The notes below the pieces were generated by a model that searched no databases, was not told the DNA's origin, and worked only from the letters and a program-made list of their open reading frames with translations. DNA of 23,853 bases from a virus, in the IMG/VR virus record IMGVR_UViG_3300037882_003223, positions 1-23,853 of that record; one strand, given 5' to 3'. The position numbers and the translations under genes were made by a program. Shown here piece by piece: positions 3,162-23,017 of this stretch; the stretch's first letter is position 1; the number at the start of each line of letters is the position of its first letter.

Positions 3162-3872
3162 TTAAACGGAGGGGGTGGCGGGTTTTTGTTTGGGCTTCTT
3201 TGTGGGTTTGGGGATCCTTTCGGCTTTAAGCGTCTTCTTTTCGGGAATGCCATTGTGAGTAATCTTATACTCAGCGCGAATATCCATTTCAAGAGTAGGC
3301 ACGGAAACAAAGTCGATCAGACCGTATTCAAGAGCTTGATACGCCGTCAAATATAAATCTGCGTTATTAGCTTTCTTAATAAGTTGCTGATAAAACTTCT
3401 TCGGGCGATTAGAGTTCTTGGCAAGAATTTCCATCATCTTATCATTAAACACCTCCATGCTTTTCGCATCACTGATAATATCGGACGCCTTTCCTTCAAG
3501 TTGAGTTGAGGCTTCATGGATAAGGATTGTCGCGCGTGGAGAAGCAAAACGATAACCTTTTGTTCCAGCAGACAACAAGACGCTTCCGCAACTCATGGCC
3601 TTAGATGTGCAAATCGTTACTACTGGCTTACTTATGGCATCAATCATATCCAGCATTGAGAGGACGGTTAGTACGTCGCCGCCAAATGAATCCACTACGA
3701 CTGGCACGAATGGCTGCGGGTCGTTAACGACATGATTAATTCCGGCTAAAAACATGTTGTTAGCCTCTTCGCAAAAATCGTTAACAATTAGAAACTTAGG
3801 CTTGTTTAACTGAGTGTTACCGTTTTCGTCAGTGTAGGTTAGTCCGGGAGATGTAGAGATTTTAGTTAGCAT
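3162..3872 (-). CDS. clpP: ClpP-like serine protease
   Basis: 236 aa with the ClpP/crotonase fold signature: oxyanion strand DSFGGDV at 61-67 (usual NSPGGxV), catalytic Ser94 in AMSCG, catalytic His119 in ILIHEAS, and Asp172 in NNADLYLTAYQALEYGLID. All three triad residues are present. Cellular ClpP works with AAA+ partners, and phage ClpP-like proteins usually process the prohead. Here the capsid operon already has its own protease-scaffold fusion at 18.5 kb, and this gene stands alone with its own promoter and terminator, so a role in host or phage protein turnover is as likely. The last 45 residues are a Lys/Pro-rich tail beyond the usual C-terminus (about 195-200 aa). The start is ATG, 12 nt after a -10 box. 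Confidence 0.88.
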   Translation of the reverse strand: MLTKISTSPGLTYTDENGNTQLNKPKFLIVNDFCEEANNMFLAGINHVVNDPQPFVPVVVDSFGGDVLTVLSMLDMIDAISKPVVTICTSKAMSCGSVLLSAGTKGYRFASPRATILIHEASTQLEGKASDIISDAKSMEVFNDKMMEILAKNSNRPKKFYQQLIKKANNADLYLTAYQALEYGLIDFVSVPTLEMDIRAEYKITHNGIPEKKTLKAERIPKPTKKPKQKPATPSV

Positions 3873-3942: not shown

Positions 3943-5505
3943 ATGAAAAATTTGGATTATATCTATAGTGTTTATTTGGTGACAAACTTAGCTAATGGTA
4001 AAATTTACGTGGGAAAGACAAAGGAGCCCATATTGGATCGTCTGAGTGGGCATTTTTATGACGCTCGCTCGAATAAAGATGATCGGTATTTTATGCATGC
4101 GATTCGGAAGCATGGAGAACATAATTTCAAGATAGAACTAATCGAGGAGTGCTCCTCCGAGAAAGAGTGTTTAAAAGGGGAGTCTTTTTGGATTTTAAAA
4201 AAGAAAAGTCACGATCCAAGCGTTGGGTATAACTTAATTTTTTCAGATGATGAGTATATCGCGAAGGTTAGTAAAAAGCAAACCACGAAATTATCTGAAA
4301 CCTTTAAGAAGGTGATTAGAAAGCCCGGAAAATATGGTTTCGGGGTTGGGAAGGATGAGAATCGCTATATGGTCACAAGACGCCATATCGGAGAAAATTA
4401 TAGATATAGATGCGATGATTTATCAGAGGCTCAAATATCTTCAGATAAATTTGCTATATTTTCGTGCAAAGCAACCGCCTGTTTAAATTTCCCAGACAAA
4501 AGAAGTGAATACGACAATGAAGAATTATTATTAAATTTTAATAAATTCAAAAAAGAAGCTAAGAGAGCCGAAAAATCTAATTATTACGAAGTTGAATATA
4601 TTTCTAATAGTTGGGCCGCAAATCTTAGGATTTCTGGAAAATTATTCTTTTTAGGTCTTTTCGAAAAAGAAGAGGATGCGGCGCTTGCTGTTGATATGGG
4701 CAAATTTCACATCAAAGGTAGACTTGGGGTTTATTATAACTTTCCCGAAAAATTTGAAGAATACGAGACTGCTGACTTGGGCTTGTGGTTTAAGGAGAAC
4801 CTTAGAGGAGATCGCCCCACCGTGCCTTGGATTAAGGAAGATAGTAAGTATTGCGTTTCTATAAAGACAGGGAATCAAACTCGAAGATTTGGGCAGTTTT
4901 CTTCATTAGAAAAAGCTATTGAGGCTTGGGATATGGTAGTAATGGGGCTAGGCTTAGAAAGAGACATATATTTCAAAAATAAAATTAATTTTTATAAAGA
5001 AACTCACGTAGATTTTTTGAAAAATATACAATCAGAAAGATTAAAGGACAATTTTTATGGCATAAAATTTAAAAACTCCATAAAAGAATATGAAATCGTT
5101 ATAAATCACAATAAGACTAGGACTTATTATGGAAGTCATAAAGATCCAGAAATCGCTGCCAAAATATACGATTACCACATTTGCAAGCTTGGGCTAAACA
5201 AGCCACTTAATTTTCCAGACGGCATACTAAAGGATATATCTCAGTATGAAAAATTTAATTTTAAGCGTCCAGTATTTTGTGAAACAACCAAAACTAAATT
5301 TTTGAAATCAAAAGATATGTGGAAGTTTATTGGGAGAAGTCGCTCTTACATTTTTAAAAATATAAAAAAGACAGGTTCAGTTGATGGTTTTAAATTTTCT
5401 TATGATATAGGAAATCCCGAAGACTATTCCGAGTGGGATGGAGTCACCTTAAGTAAAGATATTACACCGGCCTATCACTGTCCTTCCGAATTTAAAAATA
5501 TTTAG
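3943..5505 (+). CDS. GIY-YIG homing endonuclease with four AP2-like repeats
   Basis: 520 aa. Residues 7-100 are a GIY-YIG nuclease: VYLVTNLANGKIYVGKT supplies the two signature strands, His37 and Arg55 lie in the following helices, and Glu80 in KGESFW is the likely metal-binding glutamate. Residues 129-186, 213-270, 294-345 and 370-427 are four diverged repeats with the AP2/ERF pattern (a three-stranded sheet with G-x-F/LG-x-F, then a helix with AA-x-A/IYD, ending in NFP). Residues 441-486 (FLKSKDMWKFIGRSRSYIFKNI) resemble a NUMOD/IENR helical module. The N-terminus would cut DNA and the repeats would give site recognition. The gene is AT-richer than its neighbours and lies between clpP and phoH with its own promoter, as expected for a free-standing mobile endonuclease. 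Confidence 0.85.
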   Translation: MKNLDYIYSVYLVTNLANGKIYVGKTKEPILDRLSGHFYDARSNKDDRYFMHAIRKHGEHNFKIELIEECSSEKECLKGESFWILKKKSHDPSVGYNLIFSDDEYIAKVSKKQTTKLSETFKKVIRKPGKYGFGVGKDENRYMVTRRHIGENYRYRCDDLSEAQISSDKFAIFSCKATACLNFPDKRSEYDNEELLLNFNKFKKEAKRAEKSNYYEVEYISNSWAANLRISGKLFFLGLFEKEEDAALAVDMGKFHIKGRLGVYYNFPEKFEEYETADLGLWFKENLRGDRPTVPWIKEDSKYCVSIKTGNQTRRFGQFSSLEKAIEAWDMVVMGLGLERDIYFKNKINFYKETHVDFLKNIQSERLKDNFYGIKFKNSIKEYEIVINHNKTRTYYGSHKDPEIAAKIYDYHICKLGLNKPLNFPDGILKDISQYEKFNFKRPVFCETTKTKFLKSKDMWKFIGRSRSYIFKNIKKTGSVDGFKFSYDIGNPEDYSEWDGVTLSKDITPAYHCPSEFKNI

Positions 5506-7272: not shown

Positions 7273-8201
7273 ATGCCGAAAAAAACTATTTTTTCTAGAG
7301 AGGAAATAAATCATATTATCTTATTGAGAAACGAGGGCGTGTCATTGAAAGAAATTGGATCAAAATTTAAAAAATCTAAAGAAGTTATTAGGAGGGTTTT
7401 GGGGGGGAGAATGGGTTTGTTTTTGATTCTAAATACGAAAGAATTCATGAATTTTATCCGCTCATAAGAAAATATTACGAAGATGGATTCTCTGTTTTAA
7501 AAATTGCAGAATTAATAGGTTTGTGTTCACCGACTATAAAAGCCGTTTTGGTAAGACTTGGCTTAAGAATAAAGAAAAACGAAGATTACGCAAAAAAATA
7601 TAATATATCAGAAGATTGTATAATTCGCGAATATATTGACGGTAATAGCATATGGTTTATATCTCAAGAACATAAATGTCCCGGTTCTTTTATAGAAAGA
7701 GTTTTAAAAAAACATGGAATTAAAATAAGAAAAGGAAAAGAGGCTTGGGCCGGATCAAGAAAGAAAATAAAAGAAAAGAAAATTGTTGATGGATATATAA
7801 ACATATGCAGAGCGTCATTTCGCAACTGGAAAAAGAATGCAGAAGAACGGAATCTAGACTGGGATTTGACAATAGGAGACATAGAAGACGTTTTTAATAA
7901 ACAATGCGGGCTATGTTTTTATTCAAAAATCCCATTATTAACGCATAATTTAGATTCGGAATATACAAAATTAAGAAATAATTTAGAATGTATTTCTTTG
8001 GACAGAATTGATTCTTCAAAAGGTTATTATAGGGATAATGTTGTTTTGTGTTGTGTCCCGATGAATCTTGCCAAAAGTGATTGGGAGTTTGACAAATTCA
8101 CGGCCTTTATAAGAAGGGCAGCTTATACAATTATTTACCAAGACAACAATCACGCCGCTTCAATTCCCGCCCATTGGGGCATTATGGAGGGAGCGGTTTA
8201 A
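7273..8201 (+). pseudogene. HNH homing endonuclease gene split by a -1 frameshift
   Basis: The first frame starts at ATG 7273 (MPKKTIFSREEI) and runs to a stop at 7467. The continuation is in the -1 frame, open from a run of seven G at 7401-7407 through 8201. Joined there, the protein reads about 309 aa: three helix-turn-helix-like segments (SLKEIGSKFKKSKEVIRRVL, SVLKIAELIGLCSPTIKAVL, SIWFISQEHKCPGSFIERVL), then an HNH-type domain with CGLCFYSKIPL, ISLDRIDSSKGYYRDNVV and the closing NLAKSDW. The evenly spaced recognition helices across the frame break show it was one gene. The break may be a real inactivating indel, a homopolymer error, or programmed slippage at GGGGGGG. The gene is AT-rich except for its last ~50 nt. 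Confidence 0.75.
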
Positions 8202-8229
8202 TGAAACCCTTCCGAACAAATAAACAATT

Positions 8230-8301
8230 ATGAATATTGAACAACCATTAGATGCTTCGGGGCAAATTGAAACACATAATGTAAATGCGGACGCACATGG
8301 C
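8230..8301 (+). repeat. Tag repeat, copy 1
   Basis: Coding repeat of the N-terminal tag; 42 of the first 51 nucleotides match 16704-16754, after which a 2-codon shift in the ADAH region is needed to continue the alignment. Confidence 0.75.
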
Positions 8302-8406
8302 AACTTGCTCGCGTCCTCGTTGGTCGATCAGCCCTATCGTAATGTTCTAAGCCCGCTCGCGGGGGCAGGCCCGGATGCAAAATATATTAAAGCACCAATG
8401 CGCTGA
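8230..8406 (+). CDS. 58-aa protein sharing its N-terminal tag with the SGNH hydrolase
   Basis: ATG at 8230, TGA at 8404-8406; too short for usual gene calls. The first 17 residues, MNIEQPLDASGQIETHN, match the start of the SGNH protein at 16704 in 15 of 17 positions, and 42 of 51 nucleotides are identical. The remainder (NLLASSLVDQPYRNVLSPLAGAGP and on) has no counterpart there. The conserved tag with mostly synonymous nucleotide differences supports real coding. It may be a complete small virion protein or the remnant of a longer tagged protein whose catalytic part was lost. An A-rich stretch and no Shine-Dalgarno sequence precede it. Confidence 0.6.
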   Translation: MNIEQPLDASGQIETHNVNADAHGNLLASSLVDQPYRNVLSPLAGAGPDAKYIKAPMR

Positions 8407-8808: not shown

Positions 8809-8861
8809 ATGTAATCTTGGTTAAGCATTACCTAAGATAAAGCCTCACGAAGAATACATTG

Positions 8862-9542
8862 ATGATTAAACCCCCATTTGAAGAAATGATTCCTGCCGCG
8901 ATGGTGGAAATTAACAAGAGGCGCAATGGGTGGACACTGACTTCAGTACCTTTTGATGATGTGACGCAGTTACTCTTGATTAGGGCAAATGATAAGTATG
9001 CGCAATACACGCCTGAAAAAGGGCCGTTTACCAACTGGCTTAACACCTTAATAAGTAACGCTTTAACAAATATACTGAGAGATAACTTGGGTAAGTTCAG
9101 CCCACCCTGTAATACAGGTAAAGGTGGGTGTGAATTTAATCGCGGCGAGGATTTATGTGGATTCACCAAAAGTGGGCATAAAGATTGTGAATGTCCCGCG
9201 TATTGTAGGTGGTTGAAAAAGAAACGTTATGAGTATGGGATTAAGCAAGGGCTTTCGTTGGACTCGCACTCTCAGGAGGTGAACACGATCCCAGACGAAT
9301 TCATTGACATTCCGGAATACAAAAAGGCAATTGATCTTAAGATGGTTAACTATTTAACTGTGCAGGAGTTGCGTATTTACAAATTGCTATTTACCGAACA
9401 TAAAACAATGACGGAGGTTGGGGTTATTCTGAAATTAGCCAAGGCGAAAAATTCCCCCATTCCCGGGTATCAAACAATCCATAAGGCTAAGCAGAAAATT
9501 ATTAAGGTTGCGAAAAAAATTATTGTGGAGGATATTATCTAA
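8862..9542 (+). CDS. Sigma-factor-like protein with Cys-rich insert
   Basis: 226 aa from ATG 8862 (the TTG one codon earlier is not needed). Residues 31-75 (FDDVTQLLLIRANDKY, GPFTNWLNTLISNAL, ILRD) fit sigma-70 region 2.1-2.2, which contacts core RNA polymerase. Residues 83-115 hold six Cys (83, 90, 99, 109, 111, 115), a probable metal site replacing most of region 2.3-3. Residues 163-220 (LTVQELRIYKLLFTEHKTMTEVGVIL and the helix starting GYQTIHKAKQKI) resemble the region 4 helix-turn-helix. It is probably a divergent phage sigma factor for structural genes. The next gene overlaps by one base (TAATG), so it is coupled to the terminase genes. Confidence 0.65.
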   Translation: MIKPPFEEMIPAAMVEINKRRNGWTLTSVPFDDVTQLLLIRANDKYAQYTPEKGPFTNWLNTLISNALTNILRDNLGKFSPPCNTGKGGCEFNRGEDLCGFTKSGHKDCECPAYCRWLKKKRYEYGIKQGLSLDSHSQEVNTIPDEFIDIPEYKKAIDLKMVNYLTVQELRIYKLLFTEHKTMTEVGVILKLAKAKNSPIPGYQTIHKAKQKIIKVAKKIIVEDII

Positions 9543-11582: not shown

Positions 11583-14500
11583 ATGGCGTGGATTGAACCG
11601 AATTGGGACAAAGGTGATTTAAAAAATGTCAACGAAGAGTTGGCTTTAATTAAAGGAGAATTAAGTGATGAAGAAGCAAAGAATTGGCTGGGCCAGTTCT
11701 TAATGTATAATATCCAGTTTACGACGGAAATTTTATTCGGAGTTAAATTACATCCGCGTCAATGCATTCTCCTAAAGTCTTGGTTCCATTGTAATTACAA
11801 CTTAGCTGTTTGGGGCAGAGGATCTGGAAAAACCGTAAGATATAGTGATGATACCCAACTAGTTACAAAAAATAATGGCTATATTTCTTTAGTAAAGCTA
11901 CTCCCCGATGTTTCGTTTTTAACGGAGGGATGGCAGAATATTCCCGAGACTGAGCTTTGGAACGGAAATTCTTGGCAAAAAACAGACAAGATTTACGTTC
12001 AACCCCAAAAGGATTGTCTTACTGTTAAAACGCGTTATAATTATTCTTTAACCGGCTCAACTAATCATTTAGTTAAAGTTTTAAATAAGGAGAAATCCGA
12101 AATTGAGTGGAAAAAATATTCCGACATCAATCTCGGCGACTATATTTGTATTTCTAGAAATGATGTTGATTTCGAACCAAAGGAGAAAACATATAAAAGA
12201 GAGGCTTATCTATTAGGACTACTTGTAGGAGATGGAAGTTATGGAGAAAGTGAGGCGAGCGCCTGTATTACTACGGCAGATCAGGAAACTATAGATTGGG
12301 TTTATAAAAATTGGGAGATAATGAGCTATACTCCAAAAGAAGGAACCGAAGCTATAGATATTAATTTCTCTACAAAATTAATCGGTCCGCTTTTTGAAGA
12401 GTATGGAGTAAAAAAGTCTTTGTCGTATTCAAAAGAAATACCCATTAAAATAAGAGAATCGAAGAACTCTTTGAAGTGGTTCCTGTCGGGTCTTTACGAT
12501 ACAGACGGAAGCGCCTTGACGCAAGGAAACATTGAATACTGCACGGTTTCTATTACTTTGGCGAAACAGGTTCACAATGCTCTGCTTTTATTTGGAATTG
12601 TTTCTCGGTTAAAGGAATGCAAAACCCCATCACCGTTTGGTAAATGCTGGAAAGTGGTGATTAGTGGGCATGATGTAGATATTTTCTCTCAAAAAATCGG
12701 ATTCAATCTAACAAGAAAAAGAGTTTTATCAGAGCGGTTTTTCGAAAGAAATACTAACAATGACGTTGTTCCGGGAGTAAAAGAGTTTTTTCAAAAAAAC
12801 GTTAAAACTGGATTTAGATTAAAAAAAGAATTTTCGGATGAATGGAGAAACAAAATTAGAAGAAAAACGAATCAAGAAAGTTTATCTTATGATAGTTTAA
12901 AAAAATATACTGATTTTGCAAAAAAAGTTGGTATGACTGTGCCTTCAAATATTGGCGAAATTCAAAACGAGAACTTCTTTTTTGATCCTGTTATAGAAAT
13001 TATCCCATCAAAAGAGGATTGTATAGATTTCAGCATTCCAAACGGAGCTAAATATTGGTGCAACGGATTCATAAACCATAATAGCACATTCGCTGGTTTA
13101 TGGGCTGTTTTAGACGGCTTATTTAATCCTGGAACCCATACCCTAATCGTTTCCCAAAACTTTCGCTCAAGTCGTCGTATATTAGAAAATCTTGAAAAAT
13201 TAGCAAATTCCCCAGAGGGGGCGCTATTTAAACAATGTATCGATGGGGAGTTATCTAGAAGAGCCGATATTTTCAAATACACGTTTAAAAATGGATCGTC
13301 TATAACGGCGGTTCCGCTTTCTGGGGGCGAGGGATTGCGAGGATTGAGATGTTCGAGACTTATCATTGACGAAACATTATTAATCAGTCTCGGAATTATA
13401 GAGACGATTTTGAAGCCTTTCTTGGTAAGTGGGGGAAATATTAAAGAGAAACTTCAATTACGCGAGCTTGAAGACAGGTTGATTAAAAAGGGTTTTCTCA
13501 AAGAAGAAGATAGGGAAATTTTTGCTTCAACCTCAAAAATGATTTTACTTAGTTCCGCTTCTTATCAATGGGAGGATCTATATAAGACTTATCGACAATA
13601 CTTAAAAAATATAGAAACCTTTAAGGAGGCTGATTTGAAAGTTGCCACTTACAGTGTTACCCAAATTGGCTACAAAGCTGTTCCCAAAGACTTGCTAGAC
13701 CCCGGAATTATAAAAGACGTTGAGAGTGGCGATATATCTCAAAATGTTGTAGATCGGGAGTATGGTGCTATTTTCGTTTCTGATAGTTCCGGCTATTTCA
13801 AGGCGTCAAAAATGGCCGAATGCACTATACCGGATGGCCAGCGACCCTGTGTGGAAATTGCGGGAGAAAAGGGGACGGAATATGTTCTGGGGATTGATAT
13901 TTCATTATCCAGTGGAGAAGCGAGCGATGATTTCGCCATGAGTCTTTTAAAAATTATCCCAAAGGGGGATAAAAAAATAGGGATGTTAGTGCATTCTTAC
14001 GCAATGGCCGGTGGGGCACACAAGGATCACGTAGCATATTTACATTACATTTTAACAAACTTTAATGTTGTATACATTGGGATCGATTCAAGTCAAGGGG
14101 ATCAGGAGTTCTCATCTCAATCGAACGAAACGAAGCTATTTAAAGATTCAAATATTGAGTTAAGAGATATTGTGGCGGATTTTAATAAAAACGACCAATC
14201 TGAGATACCAAAACAAATTGCGCAAAGCTATAATTTACAAGCTAGGCGAATAGTCCACAAGCAATCATTTACAAGCGCATGGCAAAGAATGGCATGTGAA
14301 CACTTACAGGCATGTATTGATTATAAAAACATTTTATTCGCGGGAAAAGCTGGTGCGGTGGATGGCCTTGGCGATGAACTGGCGCACTCTAGACCTTCTA
14401 TTATGGATAATCATCCAGATTTTCTAGAGGAAGGTATTCATTACTTTATCGAAAGACAAGATTTTCTTATAGATTTAACAAAAAGAGAGTGCGCCTTAAT

Positions 14501-14702
14501 CGAAGTCACTTCGAATCCAAGCGGTGGCCAGAGTTTCGACTTACCCGCTTCCATGAGAAGAACAACATCAAAAACCAGAGCAAAAAAAGACAATTTCTCC
14601 TCTTTGGTTTTAGCCAATTGGTGTTTAAGAATGTATCTGGATTCCCAGTCCTTACCCAAAGAGGAAGAATACAGTACATTTAATTTCTTCTTCGCGAGAT
14701 AA
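11583..14702 (+). CDS. terL: Terminase large subunit interrupted by an intein
   Basis: 1039-aa precursor; 623 aa after removal of the 416-aa intein, a normal terL length. Walker A is GRGSGKT at residues 78-84, joined after splicing to Ser501 (STFAGLW). Walker B is LIIDE at 593-597. The RNase H-like nuclease domain begins with VLGIDIS (Asp772), continues with VVYIGIDSSQGD and closes with KKDNFSSLVLANW. The protein is the packaging motor: ATP-driven DNA translocation and cutting of concatemers at the portal. Until the intein leaves, the P-loop is broken and the ATPase should be inactive. The gene starts 3 nt after the ERCC4 stop. Confidence 0.93.
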   Translation: MAWIEPNWDKGDLKNVNEELALIKGELSDEEAKNWLGQFLMYNIQFTTEILFGVKLHPRQCILLKSWFHCNYNLAVWGRGSGKTVRYSDDTQLVTKNNGYISLVKLLPDVSFLTEGWQNIPETELWNGNSWQKTDKIYVQPQKDCLTVKTRYNYSLTGSTNHLVKVLNKEKSEIEWKKYSDINLGDYICISRNDVDFEPKEKTYKREAYLLGLLVGDGSYGESEASACITTADQETIDWVYKNWEIMSYTPKEGTEAIDINFSTKLIGPLFEEYGVKKSLSYSKEIPIKIRESKNSLKWFLSGLYDTDGSALTQGNIEYCTVSITLAKQVHNALLLFGIVSRLKECKTPSPFGKCWKVVISGHDVDIFSQKIGFNLTRKRVLSERFFERNTNNDVVPGVKEFFQKNVKTGFRLKKEFSDEWRNKIRRKTNQESLSYDSLKKYTDFAKKVGMTVPSNIGEIQNENFFFDPVIEIIPSKEDCIDFSIPNGAKYWCNGFINHNSTFAGLWAVLDGLFNPGTHTLIVSQNFRSSRRILENLEKLANSPEGALFKQCIDGELSRRADIFKYTFKNGSSITAVPLSGGEGLRGLRCSRLIIDETLLISLGIIETILKPFLVSGGNIKEKLQLRELEDRLIKKGFLKEEDREIFASTSKMILLSSASYQWEDLYKTYRQYLKNIETFKEADLKVATYSVTQIGYKAVPKDLLDPGIIKDVESGDISQNVVDREYGAIFVSDSSGYFKASKMAECTIPDGQRPCVEIAGEKGTEYVLGIDISLSSGEASDDFAMSLLKIIPKGDKKIGMLVHSYAMAGGAHKDHVAYLHYILTNFNVVYIGIDSSQGDQEFSSQSNETKLFKDSNIELRDIVADFNKNDQSEIPKQIAQSYNLQARRIVHKQSFTSAWQRMACEHLQACIDYKNILFAGKAGAVDGLGDELAHSRPSIMDNHPDFLEEGIHYFIERQDFLIDLTKRECALIEVTSNPSGGQSFDLPASMRRTTSKTRAKKDNFSSLVLANWCLRMYLDSQSLPKEEEYSTFNFFFAR
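11835..13082 (+). mobile_element. LAGLIDADG intein in the terL Walker A loop
   Basis: Residues 85-500 of TerL. The start follows GSGKT and has the N-terminal splicing pattern DDTQLVTKNNGYISL. The block B His is in TGSTNHLVKV. Two LAGLIDADG motifs, LLGLLVGDGS (about 210-219) and FLSGLYDTDGS (about 300-310), form the homing endonuclease. The end has block F CIDFSIPNG and block G NGFINHN followed by Ser+1. Removing it joins GRGSGKT to STFAGLW, a perfect P-loop. Oddly, the first residue is Val (or Arg if the cut is one codon on), not the usual Cys, Ser, Thr or Ala. Confidence 0.9.
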
Positions 14703-14755: not shown

Positions 14756-16702
14756 ATGGCACGCCCCTACAACAAGCGGAATTCTGACTATTGGCAAAAT
14801 CGAACAAATAAGCCCGTTCAACAAACTCCCACCCCCGTTGGTGACTTCCCCCTCGCCCTAGCCTCCTTCGACGAGCAGCCCCACTATTCCGTAATTGCCT
14901 CCTGTGGTGGTGACGGTTCTTCAACGCGCTCCTCATTTTCCGCGCAGATCTCACCGTTAGATCGCTATAAGAACATCAACGCCGGGATTCTACCTTGGGA
15001 AAACAGAAGTGGCATGGTCGGTATGCAATCGGTAATTATAGTGTGCCAAAAAGCATACGCGAATGTTTCGGTTGTTCGTAACGCAACAGAGGCATCCGTG
15101 GAGTTCAGTTGCTCTAACTTACATATTAAAACGTCCAATAAAACTGTATCTGATTTTTTCGCCGAATGGTTTAATAGGGTTAAAATGTATAGTTTTACTC
15201 AACAATTCATGCGGGAATACTATCGCTCCGGCAACGTGCCAATTTATAAATTCACCGGCAAAATGTCCCCCGAACAATATGGGAAAATGACCACTGTTTT
15301 TGGCGCGAAAGAGAATTCACTCCCCATTAAGTATACTATCTTAAACCCTGCCCAGATTTACCTAAATGGCGGTTTAGGTTATGACCAAAATTGGGTTAAG
15401 GTTTTATCCACCTTTGAAATTGACCGGTTAAAAAAGGGTCTCACCCCCGAAGATAAGCAAGTTTTCAATTCACTTCCAAGCGATGTAAAGCAGCAAATCA
15501 TGAAAGGTGGCTCTTACAATGAAGTGCTAATCCCGCTAGATCCCAAGAAATTGACCTTTGTGTTCTATAAAAAGCAAGATTACGAACCGATGGCCATTCC
15601 GATGATATTCCCCGTTTTGAATGACATTGAGTGGAAGCTAGAACTCAAAAAAATGGATATGTCGTTAAGCCGCACTATCGAGCAAGTTATTTTGATGATA
15701 ACTACCGGCGAAAAAAAAGATCAATACGGCGGCGGCATTAACCCCCAGAACTTGAGCAATTTACAAAACATGTTCAAGAATCAGACCTTAGGGCGCGTTC
15801 TTGTCGCAGATTATACAACCAAGGGTGAATGGCTAATTCCAGATATCGGTTCAATTTTGGGACCAGAGAAATATAAACAAGTGGAAAGCGACATTAGGGA
15901 GGGTTTACAATCAATCTTAAGTGGGGATGGGGAGAAATTTGCCAACGCGCAAATTAAAACGAAGGTATTTATTGAGCGAATGAAAGAGGCGCAGAAGGTT
16001 TTCCTCACCGAGTTCCTAATCCCGGAAGTTCAGCGTATCTGTGTGGCGATGAATTTCAAGAATGTGCCCGTTATTGAATTTGAGGAAATTCGGTTAGATG
16101 ACCCCAACGTAGCCGCGCGCACGTATCTGCGGCTTGCAGAATTAGGCATCTTAACCCCCGAGGAATTATTCACCGCAATGGAAAGCGGCGTTCTCCCGGA
16201 TATTGAATCAAACATCATTAAACAATCGCTATGGAAAAAGCAGCGTGACGACGGACTGTATGAACCTATGTTAGGTGGTGCTAATAAGGATGAGGAGGGC
16301 GGCGATGGTCGGCCCGCTGGAACCAAAACTAAAAAGACATCCAATAAAATTAGCCCAATTGGGACTAAGGCTAGCGAGGATGCCTTTTCAATGACGAAAG
16401 TTGCCACGTTAAGTTTAATTGCCGACAAATTGCGCAATGATGTTAAGGCCGCGTTTAAGAAATCGTTTAAAGTTAAAAAATTGAATGAAGCGCAGGTTAG
16501 TGTGGCGGAAACCCTGACTAAGCAAATTATGGCCAATGAGGATTTTGATAAGTGGATTGATTCGGTTGCCGCGTATATCGAAGCGCCAAAATCCGTGGAT
16601 TCTATTAAGGCGCGGGAAATTGATGAATTGGCCCTTAAATATGAGTTGAATGAATTTGATGCGATCATCGTTAGTAAGTGCTCCGTTCAGTGTATTAAAT
16701 GA
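14756..16702 (+). CDS. Portal protein
   Basis: 648 aa, long for a siphovirus portal but normal for larger phages. After a polar N-terminus of about 70 residues comes the portal core: VCQKAYANVSVVRNATEASVEF, DFFAEWFNRVKMYSFTQQFMREYYRSGNVPIYKF (clip/wing entry), YTILNPAQIYLNGGLGY, then the long helices AIPMIFPVLNDIEWKLELKKMD and LGPEKYKQVESDIREGLQSIL of the crown/stem. The C-terminus (from about 490) is Lys/Gly-rich and helical. Twelve copies would form the DNA gate at one capsid vertex, where the terminase docks. Its position directly after terL and before the protease and capsid genes supports the call, which rests on layout and secondary structure more than on a short motif. Confidence 0.82.
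   Translation: MARPYNKRNSDYWQNRTNKPVQQTPTPVGDFPLALASFDEQPHYSVIASCGGDGSSTRSSFSAQISPLDRYKNINAGILPWENRSGMVGMQSVIIVCQKAYANVSVVRNATEASVEFSCSNLHIKTSNKTVSDFFAEWFNRVKMYSFTQQFMREYYRSGNVPIYKFTGKMSPEQYGKMTTVFGAKENSLPIKYTILNPAQIYLNGGLGYDQNWVKVLSTFEIDRLKKGLTPEDKQVFNSLPSDVKQQIMKGGSYNEVLIPLDPKKLTFVFYKKQDYEPMAIPMIFPVLNDIEWKLELKKMDMSLSRTIEQVILMITTGEKKDQYGGGINPQNLSNLQNMFKNQTLGRVLVADYTTKGEWLIPDIGSILGPEKYKQVESDIREGLQSILSGDGEKFANAQIKTKVFIERMKEAQKVFLTEFLIPEVQRICVAMNFKNVPVIEFEEIRLDDPNVAARTYLRLAELGILTPEELFTAMESGVLPDIESNIIKQSLWKKQRDDGLYEPMLGGANKDEEGGDGRPAGTKTKKTSNKISPIGTKASEDAFSMTKVATLSLIADKLRNDVKAAFKKSFKVKKLNEAQVSVAETLTKQIMANEDFDKWIDSVAAYIEAPKSVDSIKAREIDELALKYELNEFDAIIVSKCSVQCIK
16691..16698 (+). promoter_or_regulatory. 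-10-like box TG-TATTAA before the SGNH gene
   Basis: TG at 16691-16692, TATTAA at 16693-16698, 5 nt before ATG 16704, inside the last codons of the portal gene. It could give the SGNH gene a near-leaderless transcript of its own. Confidence 0.3.
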
Positions 16703-16703
16703 T

Positions 16704-16772
16704 ATGAATTTAGAGCAACCATTAGATGCTTCCCCGCAAATTGAAACGCACAACGCAGACGCGGGGGCGCAT
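16704..16772 (+). repeat. Tag repeat, copy 2
   Basis: Second copy of the N-terminal tag-coding sequence, matching 8230-8301. It has the base composition of the phage genes, unlike the GC-rich sequence that follows it. Confidence 0.75.
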
Positions 16773-18503
16773 GCGGAGGCTATGGCGCTTAAACAAGATA
16801 AGGCAGAGGTGTCGGCAACTTACCTGCTATCGTTGGTGTGCGAGAAACTGGCGGCTGGCGAAGCAGTTAGTATTAATTTCCAAGGAGACTCTATTTTATA
16901 CGGACAGACCACGGGAGGAGAGGCAGCGACAATCGCGGCGATCAATAGCTCGTCTCAACTTCGGTCTATCACGCCGATCCCGGAAACATTCAAGCAGGCG
17001 GTTGCGTTAATGCACCCGACGGCGACGATTACCGTAACCAACCGGGGCTACCCAGGCGACACGGCGGCGTCCAGCTATGCCCGCTGGTCGGCCTCTAGCG
17101 TTGGGGATGTTACGATAATAAATCCGTGCCTGAACGATGCCAACGCTTACGGAAACCCCGTCACCCAGCCGGCCGTCGATTATCCTACATACATCGCGGA
17201 CCTTCGCACCTACGTCACGAGCCTGACTGCCGCTGGGTCGCTCGTGATATTCATGCAGCCGCCTATTCCGCAGAGCAACACGGATAACGGAAAATCGCGC
17301 CGATACTCTGCGGCGGCGAAGGCGCTTGTGGAGTCGCTAGGCGGAATCGTGGTCGATATAGAGCAGATGATACGAGTCTTTCTTAAGTCTCGCGCGGATA
17401 GTATACACATGGACGCTCAGTTATATGCGCATGCGGGATGCTGCCTTGCTGCGCTTTTTTCAGGATATGCAGGCCGGATTGAGCAAGTCGCGCCCGGATC
17501 TCAGATCGCATTGCGCACGCGAAGCATTTGGCCGCTGGCATTTACCGCTTCCGGGACTAATATCGCGCGCACACGCGAGGCGGGGTACACGGACATCGGG
17601 AATTCGCTGGTGGATCGTTGGCTGCCTCTTTTTGTTACGGCCCCGTGCCGGCTTAATGTGCGGATGTTTCAGGTATCTTTCACGGGCGCTGTACGCATGC
17701 TGAGAATTGCCCGTGGCGCGGCGATTGCGCTGAAGGGCGACGGAACTTCCACCTCGGATTCGTGGGTAGTGGAGCAGCCGCGAGACTTTTTCGAGATCGG
17801 AACGGATGCGGTTGGCGGTCAGCCGGAACAACCAATGGTTGGGCCTTTGCTAATGCCGGGACTAAACCTTATTTCGCTCACCAATGACCTGAGCACGAAT
17901 AATTACGGCATCTCTAGCGTCTGGTTCGCGCCGCCGGAGGTAAGCTGCGCGTATATGGCTGCGCGGATAATGAAGTCGGGTGGACAAACCGTCACTGACA
18001 CTGCCGCACTCAATCCCGGCACGGCCTCGTTCGCGGTCTCCGTGCTTGTGGGGGGGCACCATCTATACAGCAATCCAGACTCCGCGATCTCTCTACTCAA
18101 TAAAGTCACCGGAAACACGGGATGGAAGCTCGATCTAGGCACGGATAGGAAGCTCGTTTTGACTGTTTACAACGGGTCAACAAGCACGGCATACACCGCC
18201 CCAGTTGCCGCTGAATATGATCAGACGCAACGATGGACGTTCGGCTTCTTGATGAGCCGGGCAAACCGTGTGTATTTCCACTGCAACGGGGAGTCGCTTG
18301 GCTCCGTTGTATGCACGGCTACCGCTGCTTATAATGTGGACTCCACTGGAACAAATTTGACGGCTCTTACCGGAGCTCCAGCTAAAATATACATTGGCGG
18401 AATCTGGTTTTGCACGTCTACGACCGTAGATTTCCCGAAGACAATGGCACTCCTGAATTGGGGGCCTGATGCGTCGGGAGTATATACAGAAATATTGCCG
18501 TAA
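16704..18503 (+). CDS. SGNH/GDSL hydrolase with virion-type tag and LamG-like C-terminus
   Basis: 599 aa from ATG 16704, one base after the portal stop; this start keeps the tag MNLEQPLDASPQIETHN shared with the 58-aa protein at 8230. After a short helix (ALKQDKAEV) an SGNH esterase domain follows: block I NFQGDSI (Ser63), block II NRGYPGDT (Gly115), block III CLNDAN (Asn144) and block V DSIHMD (Asp232, His235). All catalytic residues are present. Residues 440-545 (LVGGHHLYS, WKLDLGTDRKLVLTVYNG, YFHCNGESLG) look like a concanavalin/LamG beta sandwich that may bind glycan. Such enzymes remove acyl groups from surface polysaccharides. The gene is far GC-richer than both neighbours, a sign of recent transfer. 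It is probably displayed on the virion, by inference from the tag and position. Confidence 0.8.
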   Translation: MNLEQPLDASPQIETHNADAGAHAEAMALKQDKAEVSATYLLSLVCEKLAAGEAVSINFQGDSILYGQTTGGEAATIAAINSSSQLRSITPIPETFKQAVALMHPTATITVTNRGYPGDTAASSYARWSASSVGDVTIINPCLNDANAYGNPVTQPAVDYPTYIADLRTYVTSLTAAGSLVIFMQPPIPQSNTDNGKSRRYSAAAKALVESLGGIVVDIEQMIRVFLKSRADSIHMDAQLYAHAGCCLAALFSGYAGRIEQVAPGSQIALRTRSIWPLAFTASGTNIARTREAGYTDIGNSLVDRWLPLFVTAPCRLNVRMFQVSFTGAVRMLRIARGAAIALKGDGTSTSDSWVVEQPRDFFEIGTDAVGGQPEQPMVGPLLMPGLNLISLTNDLSTNNYGISSVWFAPPEVSCAYMAARIMKSGGQTVTDTAALNPGTASFAVSVLVGGHHLYSNPDSAISLLNKVTGNTGWKLDLGTDRKLVLTVYNGSTSTAYTAPVAAEYDQTQRWTFGFLMSRANRVYFHCNGESLGSVVCTATAAYNVDSTGTNLTALTGAPAKIYIGGIWFCTSTTVDFPKTMALLNWGPDASGVYTEILP

Positions 18504-18519
18504 CATAACCAATATTTCG

Positions 18520-18527
18520 TGTATCAT
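18520..18527 (+). promoter_or_regulatory. -10-like box TG-TATCAT before the protease-scaffold gene
   Basis: TG at 18520-18521, TATCAT at 18522-18527, then 7 nt and the ATG at 18535. An in-frame ATG at 18526 overlaps the box, which favours the downstream start if the box is used. Confidence 0.35.
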
Positions 18528-18534
18528 GGGTGAT

Positions 18535-20088
18535 ATGTTCTCTTTCGGCGATAAACAATTTAAATACCAAGCCTTCTTTGAAGCGCAGGCGCGAGTTGTT
18601 TGCGGGCAACCGAAAGAGAAGGCTGGTTTGGCTATTGCATCCCTATCGAAAATTACAGGTGTATTTGATGAAGAGGTTTTAGAGAAACTTAAAGAGTCGC
18701 CCGATTTAATGGCAGTGGCTAGTAATTTAATCCTCATAGATCACTGTAACAAAAATCACGATGCCGTACTACTTCAAGATATAGTCGGAGTTGCTGATAA
18801 GTTTGAATACAAACAACTTAACGCCGAACACAATCGCGCCGATGTCAAAGGTTTTATTGATGAGGTGGGCTGGTCCCTATACCCTTCCAACGAGTTAATT
18901 GATAAGGAGGAATTACTTAACCAAACGTCCCCCATCCAACTTGTTATCGGCGGCTATTTATGGCGCGTGGTTGATCCCAAGTTATGCAACCTAATTGAGG
19001 AGGCCGCGAACGAAAATAGCAAAAATTACGGGGAGGTTTCGACCTCATTCGAATTACTATTTAACGAATACTTAATTTGCGTTGGCCCATTAGACGCGCG
19101 CAAGGGTCGGTTGATTAAATCTGACGAAGAGGATTATGACAAGTATGATAAAATGCTACCGCAAAATGGCGGGTCAGGGAAAGATGGCGGAAATTATGTT
19201 TTTCGCGTATTGAAAGATATTCTCCCCGTGGGCGCGGGAATTGTAAGGAAACCTGCGTCTGGGTTGAAAGGGATCGCGGTTGTTACACAAGATTCCGAAT
19301 TAAAGAAAGAGGAAACCGAAGATGAGCACCCATTAGCAGAATATTTAGACGCAAAAGAAAATTTAATAAAAATTTCAGAAAACAGTGTAAACGAAAATAA
19401 ATCAACTAATATTATGGTAATCACATCCCTAAACGACATTCAAGCCAATTTTGAAGGCTTCGCGAAACTCCCGGCAAACGAGGCCGTTGCGTCCATTCAG
19501 AAAATCATGGAAACTAAGATTCTTGAGCTAAGTGAAAATTACGCGAAAGAAATTAAACTTAAGGAGGACGCCGTTAAGGCTTCTACCACCGCGCAGGCCG
19601 AACTTGAAGATCGCGCCAAAGGTCTTGGTAAAGCCGTGGAGGAGTTGCAGGCCAAACTTTTAGAAATCGAGAGCAAGCAAAGCGCCGCCGCTAATGAAGC
19701 TGCTTTCAACTCTCGGATGGCCGCGCTTGATGAGACTTTCGACCTAGATGACGATGACCGCGCAATTCTCGTTGATGAGGTTAAAGCCCTTGAGTCTGAA
19801 GCCGCGTTTATGCCGTGGATGGATAAAAAGAAGAAACTCATGAAGGAGAAAACTAAGGCGTACAAAAAAGAGAAGGCGAAATGTATGGAAGAGAAGCTTA
19901 CTAAAGCCGGTGTAAAATTTACTCTCGATGAGAAAACCCTAGATGTCAAGGAGGTTTTTGCTTCACTTAAAGATGATCAGACTAATATAAATATTCCCAA
20001 TGGTGCGCCTGCTATCACTGAGAATTTGGCGGAAAAAATGAAAAAACTGCGTGAAGGGATTTCTGTAGCTGGCGTTAAAACCGAATAA
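18535..20088 (+). CDS. Prohead protease fused to scaffold
   Basis: 517 aa from ATG 18535 (ATG 18526 is an alternative). The first ~230 residues fit a phage prohead protease of the herpesvirus-assemblin-like fold: NAEHNRADVKGFI (likely catalytic His99), LVIGGYLWRVVDP, and EVSTSFELLFNEY (likely Ser169 or Ser171). A linker follows, then from residue 294 a helical, charged region with a coiled coil (about 330-400) and Lys-rich helices, typical of scaffold proteins. The fusion would co-assemble with capsid subunits and then digest the scaffold and itself. The place between portal and capsid genes agrees. Family assignment is from pattern only. The catalytic Ser choice is uncertain. Confidence 0.75.
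   Translation: MFSFGDKQFKYQAFFEAQARVVCGQPKEKAGLAIASLSKITGVFDEEVLEKLKESPDLMAVASNLILIDHCNKNHDAVLLQDIVGVADKFEYKQLNAEHNRADVKGFIDEVGWSLYPSNELIDKEELLNQTSPIQLVIGGYLWRVVDPKLCNLIEEAANENSKNYGEVSTSFELLFNEYLICVGPLDARKGRLIKSDEEDYDKYDKMLPQNGGSGKDGGNYVFRVLKDILPVGAGIVRKPASGLKGIAVVTQDSELKKEETEDEHPLAEYLDAKENLIKISENSVNENKSTNIMVITSLNDIQANFEGFAKLPANEAVASIQKIMETKILELSENYAKEIKLKEDAVKASTTAQAELEDRAKGLGKAVEELQAKLLEIESKQSAAANEAAFNSRMAALDETFDLDDDDRAILVDEVKALESEAAFMPWMDKKKKLMKEKTKAYKKEKAKCMEEKLTKAGVKFTLDEKTLDVKEVFASLKDDQTNINIPNGAPAITENLAEKMKKLREGISVAGVKTE
19414..20088 (+). CDS. Probable separate scaffold protein from an internal start
   Basis: In-frame ATG at residue 294 of the fusion (MVITSLNDIQANFEGF) would give a 224-aa helical scaffold without the protease. 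The 35 nt before it are A/T-rich like the leaders of the capsid-block genes here (AAAATAAATCAAC, compare AAATAAACAA before 8230 and TATAAATAAAC before 20170), in a linker of low coding constraint. Lambda C/Nu3 uses the same design. No direct proof. Confidence 0.5.
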   Translation: MVITSLNDIQANFEGFAKLPANEAVASIQKIMETKILELSENYAKEIKLKEDAVKASTTAQAELEDRAKGLGKAVEELQAKLLEIESKQSAAANEAAFNSRMAALDETFDLDDDDRAILVDEVKALESEAAFMPWMDKKKKLMKEKTKAYKKEKAKCMEEKLTKAGVKFTLDEKTLDVKEVFASLKDDQTNINIPNGAPAITENLAEKMKKLREGISVAGVKTE

Positions 20089-21978: not shown

Positions 21979-22010
21979 AAATCCTCACTTGACAAAAGTG
22001 GGGATTTTTT
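21979..22010 (+). terminator. Terminator of the capsid operon
   Basis: 12-bp stem AAATCCTCACTT / AAGTGGGGATTT with one T-G wobble, 5-nt loop GACAA, then a run of six T (22005-22010, the first three shared with the stem). The loop and stem tip contain the -35 hexamer of the next promoter. Confidence 0.88.
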
Positions 22011-22017
22011 GTATTAT
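21989..22017 (+). promoter_or_regulatory. Promoter of the LAGLIDADG gene, nested in the terminator
   Basis: Exact TTGACA at 21989-21994, 17-nt spacer, TATTAT at 22012-22017, then 7 nt and ATG 22025. The best sigma-70 match in the window. The transcript would be nearly leaderless. Confidence 0.78.
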
Positions 22018-22024
22018 ATTTTTT

Positions 22025-23017
22025 ATGACAAAAAGAAAAAACGGCAAATGGCTTCCAGAGTATACCCCTTTGTCACAGTCTTTATGCAAAAATGGAGACA
22101 TGAAGTTGGCAGATATGAAAGACTATTTTCCGAATTTTTCTTTATCATCCTTAAGGAAAAAGGCCAATTTCCTAAAAATTCATAATGGTTATCTTTCAAA
22201 CAAACTCCCTTATAATAAAGAAGCTTTGCTGAGTTTAAATCCAGCGGCTTGTTATTGGATGGGATTCTTATGTGCTGATGGCTCTTTCATAAAAAGAAGC
22301 GATAAAAATATTGCGCTTTCTATTTCTCTAGCTAAAGAAGACGAAGAGTTCGTTTATCAACTTAGAGATTTTTTAAAAGCCAAAACACAGATTAAAGATA
22401 GATATGTTGAGAACGATAAGTATAAAACAAAAAAGGGCGGTTGGCATACTTATTTTAGTCTATCTGTATCAGATATATATTGGAAATTAACTGAAATATA
22501 CGGAGATTTACATGATAAAACATATAGAGGAATTAATTTGTCCCTACCTTCTAATGATTTAAAGTTGGCTTTTTTATTGGGATATATTTGTGGAGATGGT
22601 TGCGTTTCTTTTTCCAAAGAAAAACAATGTTTAACGATTGGGGTGACTAGCAGCGCAGAAAATACTTTATACTGGATTAAAGATTTTGTTAAATCATTGG
22701 AACTTCCTGCTGCACCGGGTTTTGGAAAAAAGATTCTATTTCCTGATGTTAGAAAAACAAAGGGGAAAGCGGGAAAGATAAGTTTTAATGGAATTAGGGC
22801 GGCTTATTTATACAAATTATTAAAGCTTGTCCCGGTCAGCATAATGAAAAGAAAATTTGAGAACCCGGAGATTGAGGAGTTTGTTGAGGGTTTGTTTAAA
22901 AGATCCTCTTTCTGTAATCAAACCATAGATGAGATTTGTTTTCGCAATAAAATTGACTTTTCGAAAACTTTCCCCCTTCCCGAAAATAATTCTATAATTC
23001 CCCCAATTTCCGTGTAA
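22025..23017 (+). CDS. Free-standing LAGLIDADG homing endonuclease
   Basis: 330 aa from ATG 22025; a longer frame from TTG 21989 would start inside the -35 box and the terminator and is rejected. Two LAGLIDADG motifs are present: YWMGFLCADGSF (about 77-88) and AFLLGYICGDGC (about 182-193), each with its acidic residue, so a single chain forms both halves of the nuclease. The first 60 residues (LADMKDYFPNFSLSSLRKKANFL) look like a helix-turn-helix that adds DNA contacts. No intein splicing residues are present. The gene is AT-rich and sits between the capsid gene and the connector genes with its own promoter. The target is probably the neighbouring capsid or connector region of related phages. 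Confidence 0.88.
   Translation: MTKRKNGKWLPEYTPLSQSLCKNGDMKLADMKDYFPNFSLSSLRKKANFLKIHNGYLSNKLPYNKEALLSLNPAACYWMGFLCADGSFIKRSDKNIALSISLAKEDEEFVYQLRDFLKAKTQIKDRYVENDKYKTKKGGWHTYFSLSVSDIYWKLTEIYGDLHDKTYRGINLSLPSNDLKLAFLLGYICGDGCVSFSKEKQCLTIGVTSSAENTLYWIKDFVKSLELPAAPGFGKKILFPDVRKTKGKAGKISFNGIRAAYLYKLLKLVPVSIMKRKFENPEIEEFVEGLFKRSSFCNQTIDEICFRNKIDFSKTFPLPENNSIIPPISV

Follow-up and report, generated by a model that had tools for sequence, protein, structure and literature searches.

The window analysed here, an IMG/VR virus record taken at its whole length of 23,853 bases, is a metagenomic contig from an uncultured virus of bacteria. Between its portal gene and a putative prohead protease/scaffold gene lies a single uninterrupted reading frame of 599 amino acids, running from an ATG at 16704 to a TAA at 18501-18503, the start of which is put earlier by a mechanical ORF call, at 16650 and thus within the portal gene (Table 1). 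The portal protein ends with the residues CSVQCIK, where its relatives end with SAM or SSL. The right-flank gene had no family match; in relatives it is the upstream neighbour of the capsid genes, and its putative protease/scaffold function comes from this synteny. Of the position between portal and scaffold given in the original prediction, the portal side therefore stands, and the protease-scaffold label is one of synteny. A ClpP-like protease gene is also present in the window (3162-3872; PF00574, E=6e-31); it lies on the minus strand, distant from the capsid genes.

Table 1. Positions of the features discussed, in the window unless another locus is named
Feature	Position	Strand	Basis or remark
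Portal gene, left flank	14756..16702	+	common to 80+ loci
SGNH-hydrolase putative virion-appendage gene, 599 aa (P0001)	16704..18503	+	ORF, Pfam, PHROG, alignment, AlphaFold, Foldseek
Putative prohead protease/scaffold gene, right flank, 517 aa	18535..20088	+	synteny, 58% identity to L083
17-residue N-terminal tag MNLEQPLDASPQIETHN	16704..16754	+	repeat of 8230-8280, 42/51 bases identical
Second tagged ORF, 58 aa, MNIEQPLDASGQIETHNVNADAHGNLLASSLVDQPYRNVLSPLAGAGPDAKYIKAPMR	8230..8406	+	tag repeat
Helix predicted for residues 19-50, linking tag and enzyme; candidate stalk for oligomerisation	16758..16853	+	AlphaFold
SGNH esterase domain, residues 33-253	16800..17462	+	PF13472, conserved columns, AlphaFold, Foldseek
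Catalytic S63	16890-16892	+	conserved column
Catalytic G115	17046-17048	+	conserved column
Catalytic N144	17133-17135	+	conserved column
Catalytic D232	17397-17399	+	conserved column
Catalytic H235	17406-17408	+	conserved column
C-terminal region (residues 269-599), which may hold carbohydrate-binding beta domains	17508..18500	+	loosely alignable with C-terminal part of L149
GC-rich segment	16747..18327	+	LLR 41.4 vs best shuffled control 18.9 (60 shuffles)
AGTGTAT, late-promoter-like motif	16689..16695	+	in last portal codons, just before SGNH start
CGTGTAT, motif copy	18518..18524	+	before protease-like gene; right edge of slot
GTGTA motif copies	6764, 8432, 16690, 18519, 20133, 23012, 23422	+	before SGNH gene, protease gene and several late-looking genes
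RecG-like bacterial gene fragment in portal-protease slot of L083	L083:6080-6586	-	HATPase_c_4, E=1e-13

The protein contains an SGNH hydrolase domain. PF13472 (Lipase_GDSL_2) matched residues 61-242 with E=4e-7, its score of 31.1 bits being 1.8 bits under the curated Pfam cut-off of 32.9, and the PHROG tail-fibre family phrog_8460 matched residues 29-252 (E=2e-17). The five catalytic residues, with S63 closing the GDS motif of residues 61-63, were invariant in an alignment of six proteins and invariant or nearly so across the alignments with phage proteins, so that the Ser, Gly, Asn and Asp-x-x-His blocks of SGNH/GDSL hydrolases are all present. AlphaFold (11 sequences) modelled residues 33-253 mostly at 70-90 pLDDT and left the remainder unmodelled; the pLDDT was low upstream of residue 33, a stretch that includes part of the predicted helix. 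When this model was compared with solved structures using Foldseek, the first three ranks went to phage tail-fibre-type proteins (9d84, 9lna, 9d81), followed by the acetylxylan esterase Axe2. The resemblance to SGNH proteins of virion fibres thus extends to both sequence and fold, and the two family matches, the catalytic residues, the predicted fold and the Foldseek matches together support a phage-fibre SGNH esterase that belongs to the carbohydrate O-deacetylase type. A complete hydrolase had been predicted originally and is borne out by the catalytic set and the modelled fold; the predicted surface-glycan deacylase type agrees with the structural matches of the model to tail-fibre proteins and to an acetylxylan esterase. 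Close relatives of the protein were not found by sequence search of the PDB or by a peptide-pattern scan of viral contigs, and a whole-protein search of 45 phage records, a method insensitive to distant SGNH proteins, matched the window alone. A search of 43 phage records with PF13472 gave no match and missed the window's own gene as well, and is therefore not evidence of absence.

The C-terminal region is less well characterized, its 330 residues giving no confident match. The predicted LamG-like domain was not confirmed, and assignment to LamG or to a concanavalin-like lectin is unproven, because residues 431-599 had no Pfam match below E=0.2 and no LamG match in NCBIfam and the AlphaFold model of residues 269-599 was unusable (pLDDT 29). 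Structure prediction of the two domains therefore succeeded for the SGNH fold only. The protein with the best full-length resemblance, L149, shows a weak match to Laminin_G_3 (E=0.12) in its C-terminal part.

Base composition changes within the gene. A maximum-likelihood segmentation of 14756-20088 with two changepoints, controlled by 60 block shuffles, delimited a GC-rich segment (Table 1), and this change is real, far beyond chance. The GC-richness begins at about codon 15 of the gene. Synonymous codon usage gave a score of -0.149 for the SGNH gene and of -0.045 to +0.067 for all other genes tested, whereas the first 28 codons of the gene, of which 26 could be scored, look native (+0.008), and codon usage is normal again at the gene downstream. 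The phage-like start followed by a GC-rich body, for which GC and codon-usage profiles had been proposed as a check, is thereby upheld, the body being foreign in composition and the tag not. That the GC-rich part ends abruptly is only roughly right, as GC declines across the final ~170 bases of the gene.

The first 17 codons of the gene, which encode the N-terminal tag, recur at the start of a second ORF of 58 residues. Elsewhere in the window the tag DNA matches at most 26/51 bases, and a DNA self-search of the window aligned 8229-8299 with 16703-16773 at 79% identity (E=2e-11). The similarity begins at the start codon and not upstream, and it weakens past residues 24-28, reaching about 16787 in the SGNH gene and 8313 in the second copy. 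The 58-residue ORF opens with MNIEQPLDASGQIETHNVNADAHGNLL, has a tail unrelated to the SGNH gene and had no family match. Over the 17 codons, synonymous sites have diverged widely and nonsynonymous sites have not (pS 0.57 vs pN 0.08, Fisher p=0.0016), and for this reason we read the tag as a peptide that has been under purifying selection in two different proteins of one genome. The tag was not found in ~140 related loci, nor in pattern scans of IMG/VR with LDAxxQIETHN and MNxEQPLDA, and so it is a property of the window phage or of relatives that have not been sampled. Within this genome the N-terminal tag is common to two ORFs with different bodies, as a shared anchor would be, and it was not found in the relatives searched; conservation across phages, which had been proposed originally, is not supported, and the slot proteins of relatives bear different tags.

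In the neighbourhood of the second copy, the ORF at 7521-8201 had no Pfam match, and it reads, like those at 3943-5505 and 21989-23017, as a homing-endonuclease type between other genes. Rfam revealed no intron or known RNA in the window, e.g., in the HNH-like region at 7.3-8.4 kb. An intein that carries a LAGLIDADG endonuclease (PF14528, E=2e-13) splits the large subunit of the terminase (11583-14702), and the terminase of a related locus, L003, has no intein.

A motif containing GTGTA, with the consensus AGTGTAAT, stands ~20 bases before start codons. Among related loci, 86 of 94 have it at about this distance upstream of the portal gene, against a chance expectation of 3%; the corresponding figures are 30 of 89 for the first slot gene, 23 of 60 for the protease gene and none of 56 for the major capsid gene. 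The motif looks like a late promoter shared by the whole family. A sigma-70 region 2 protein encoded at 8859-9542 (PF04542, E=8e-6; TIGR02937, E=5e-6) could be the phage sigma factor that reads it; we infer that the motif is a promoter recognized by such a factor. Since AGTGTA precedes the SGNH gene as it precedes structural genes, the SGNH gene appears tied to the structural programme.

Related loci were collected through a portal scan, which returned at least 600 related stretches and from which 80 loci were taken in, and a capsid alignment included 57 loci. At the portal-protease position the closest relatives have other material instead of the SGNH gene, or nothing. L003 (portal 78% identical) carries there an adhesin-like pair of ORFs, one of 170 aa and the beginning of a repetitive, beta-rich one. 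In L083 (portal 78%, capsid 77%) the place is taken by 0.8 kb of GC-rich DNA that includes a RecG-like gene fragment, and a plasmid search for the source of this insert gave no result. In L086, the next closest relative, and in L087 (portal 53%, capsid 52%) only 65 bases separate the portal and protease matches, i.e., the site is empty. Distant relatives have an interval of 0.7 to 9 kb that opens with variable genes. Two conserved tags open many of their slot proteins: an IRxKQ tag, 61% identical over 20 residues with bodies 28% identical, and an FNGLQ tag (MRTFNGLQIFT), 94% identical with bodies 34% identical and often present in 2-3 copies per contig; several of the proteins in the slot have matches to virion-structural or tail-spike families. 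As these tags are conserved and the bodies behind them divergent, the phage family repeatedly places a short tag before exchangeable proteins at the portal-protease locus, the tags differing. The swappable slot of the original prediction is therefore corroborated, and uniform composition with one full-length architecture in relatives, a pattern that would speak against it, was not seen. In L043, L049, L052, L058, L061 and others, conserved small proteins that follow the portal start with MRTFNGLQIFT.QLTNSGQLD.RY; they occur in 2-3 copies per contig with differing bodies, upstream of large variable genes.

The best account of these observations, which we consider probable, is that a foreign receptor-binding deacetylase fibre sits behind a native tag in a slot for accessory appendages. 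The gene would then encode a receptor-binding appendage of the virion, either a fibre or a short spike, in which the phage-specific N-terminal peptide and the helix might provide docking on the particle and oligomerisation, with the tag itself likely being the docking element. The SGNH domain would strip O-acyl groups, in all likelihood O-acetyl ones, from a surface polysaccharide of the host, and the C-terminal region would probably bind that same glycan. Enzyme and C-terminal region may have come by horizontal transfer from a phage or prophage of higher GC content and have been joined to the native tag, downstream of it, in the portal-prohead protease slot for exchangeable appendage genes, and the late-promoter-like motif upstream would lead to expression with the structural genes. 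Caulobacter matches (L158, L160, L161) were rejected as donors because they are of small size, begin like lipoproteins and are not phage fibres; L158, in addition, has a bacterial gene neighbourhood. The fibre reading is weakened by the absence of the tag from the relatives searched, which leaves no independent case of it on another virion protein, by the second tagged ORF, which has 58 residues only and may be a remnant, and by the sequence itself, as the C-terminal half has no recognizable fold, known SGNH fibres are less than 30% identical and PF13472 scores just under its cut-off. A bolder version, which we put forward tentatively and hold to be possible rather than probable, is that a short peptide address of 17-28 residues guides otherwise unrelated proteins to a single virion docking site, that foreign host-recognition enzymes are captured by fusion behind this address in the accessory slot, and that related phages use other addresses, such as MPNYIRVKQLDQ or MRTFNGLQIFT.

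Other explanations were weighed against the fibre reading. The tag might be a relic of recombination or duplication, the start of the gene having been copied from 8230 or in the reverse direction, which hooked the cargo into a late-expressed region; the protein could then still be a virion fibre, attached through other parts such as the helix. A similarity that sets in at the very start codon and weakens past residues 24-28, a tag found in neither the related loci nor the IMG/VR scans, and a 58-residue ORF that could be a remnant next to an HNH-like ORF are all in line with a relic. However, synonymous divergence far exceeds nonsynonymous divergence, so the peptide has long been retained in both copies, a pattern that a relic would not give, and we regard this explanation as unlikely. 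More doubtful still is a late enzyme that is not part of the virion (a moron), i.e., a secreted or intracellular esterase that alters envelope sugars of the host for superinfection exclusion or lysis. Foreign composition, an accessory position and a separate promoter-like motif are typical of morons, and SGNH enzymes act on many substrates, but virion fibres are the nearest matches in sequence and in fold, the N-terminus, judged by eye, has no signal peptide, and proteins of virion families occupy the same slot in relatives.

A chimera, in which assembly mistakenly joined a foreign fibre gene to the contig, would fit a metagenomic viral contig with a sharp change in composition, and an independent assembly of the junction was looked for and not found. 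We nevertheless think it very improbable, since the break falls inside one uninterrupted frame and after a tag that is present elsewhere in the contig, the phage motif at the end of the portal gene precedes the gene, codon usage is normal again at the next gene, and the same place is variable in relatives. With the receptor-binding fibre as the preferred reading, a tag that did serve as a docking peptide would be far shorter than the attachment domains of comparable SGNH fibres and would offer a testable handle on the swapping of host-recognition proteins in a large family of uncultured phages. The portal-protease slot, in which tagged proteins vary and which is empty in some loci, is a place in which to seek receptor-binding proteins that escape family searches.

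SGNH proteins 24-29% identical to the window protein occur in 30 phage records (24 Gordonia, 5 Vibrio and 1 Arthrobacter), many of them annotated as tail fibre, minor tail protein or hydrolase. Linetti gp13, Demosthenes gp12 and OtterstedtS21 gp4 of Gordonia phages share the catalytic residues of the SGNH domain, continue into a long C-terminal region and are encoded directly after the portal gene, which gives a receptor-binding protein at this place a precedent and weakens the earlier argument that no enzyme is required there. Linetti and Demosthenes have, in this order, terminase, portal, SGNH fibre/minor tail protein, small gene and capsid maturation protease; in these two the SGNH gene thus stands shortly before the protease gene, and in OtterstedtS21 it comes after the portal. 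The Gordonia fibres are ~27% identical to the window protein in the SGNH part only and differ from it in having a long N-terminal part and no short tag, and tblastn of the window portal against the three phages gave no match. The cellular enzyme with the best fold match to the SGNH domain, Axe2 of Geobacillus (PDB 4oap, 3w7v; TM-score ~0.70 of target, ~22% identity), stands alone, with neither tag nor C-terminal part. L149 (IMGVR_UViG_2929288378_000002) is 26% identical over residues 1-268 and loosely alignable in its C-terminal part; its gene lies downstream of a large tail-region ORF and not of the portal, and the tag is lacking.

NMR evidence shows that the SGNH tailspike gp41 of phage Aristophanes (PMC8471582) and the SGNH protein gp66 of Possum (PMC9569702) O-deacetylate host surface polysaccharide, namely capsule or O-antigen, in vitro; G7C gp63.1 is named alongside them as a modular SGNH deacetylase and cited there. 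As far as they are described in these sources, the three proteins are like that of the window in combining an N-terminal part that binds the particle, inferred for the window protein, with an SGNH domain. They have larger, recognized attachment domains, whereas the anchor in the window would comprise ~17-50 residues of no known family. By description, the window protein also resembles prophage proteins of Klebsiella, in which SGNH domains are carried on receptor-binding proteins, two of them active as esterases (PMC13123978). Modular SGNH receptor-binding proteins are thus already known; what is new is the slot, together with a tag that is both short and duplicated.
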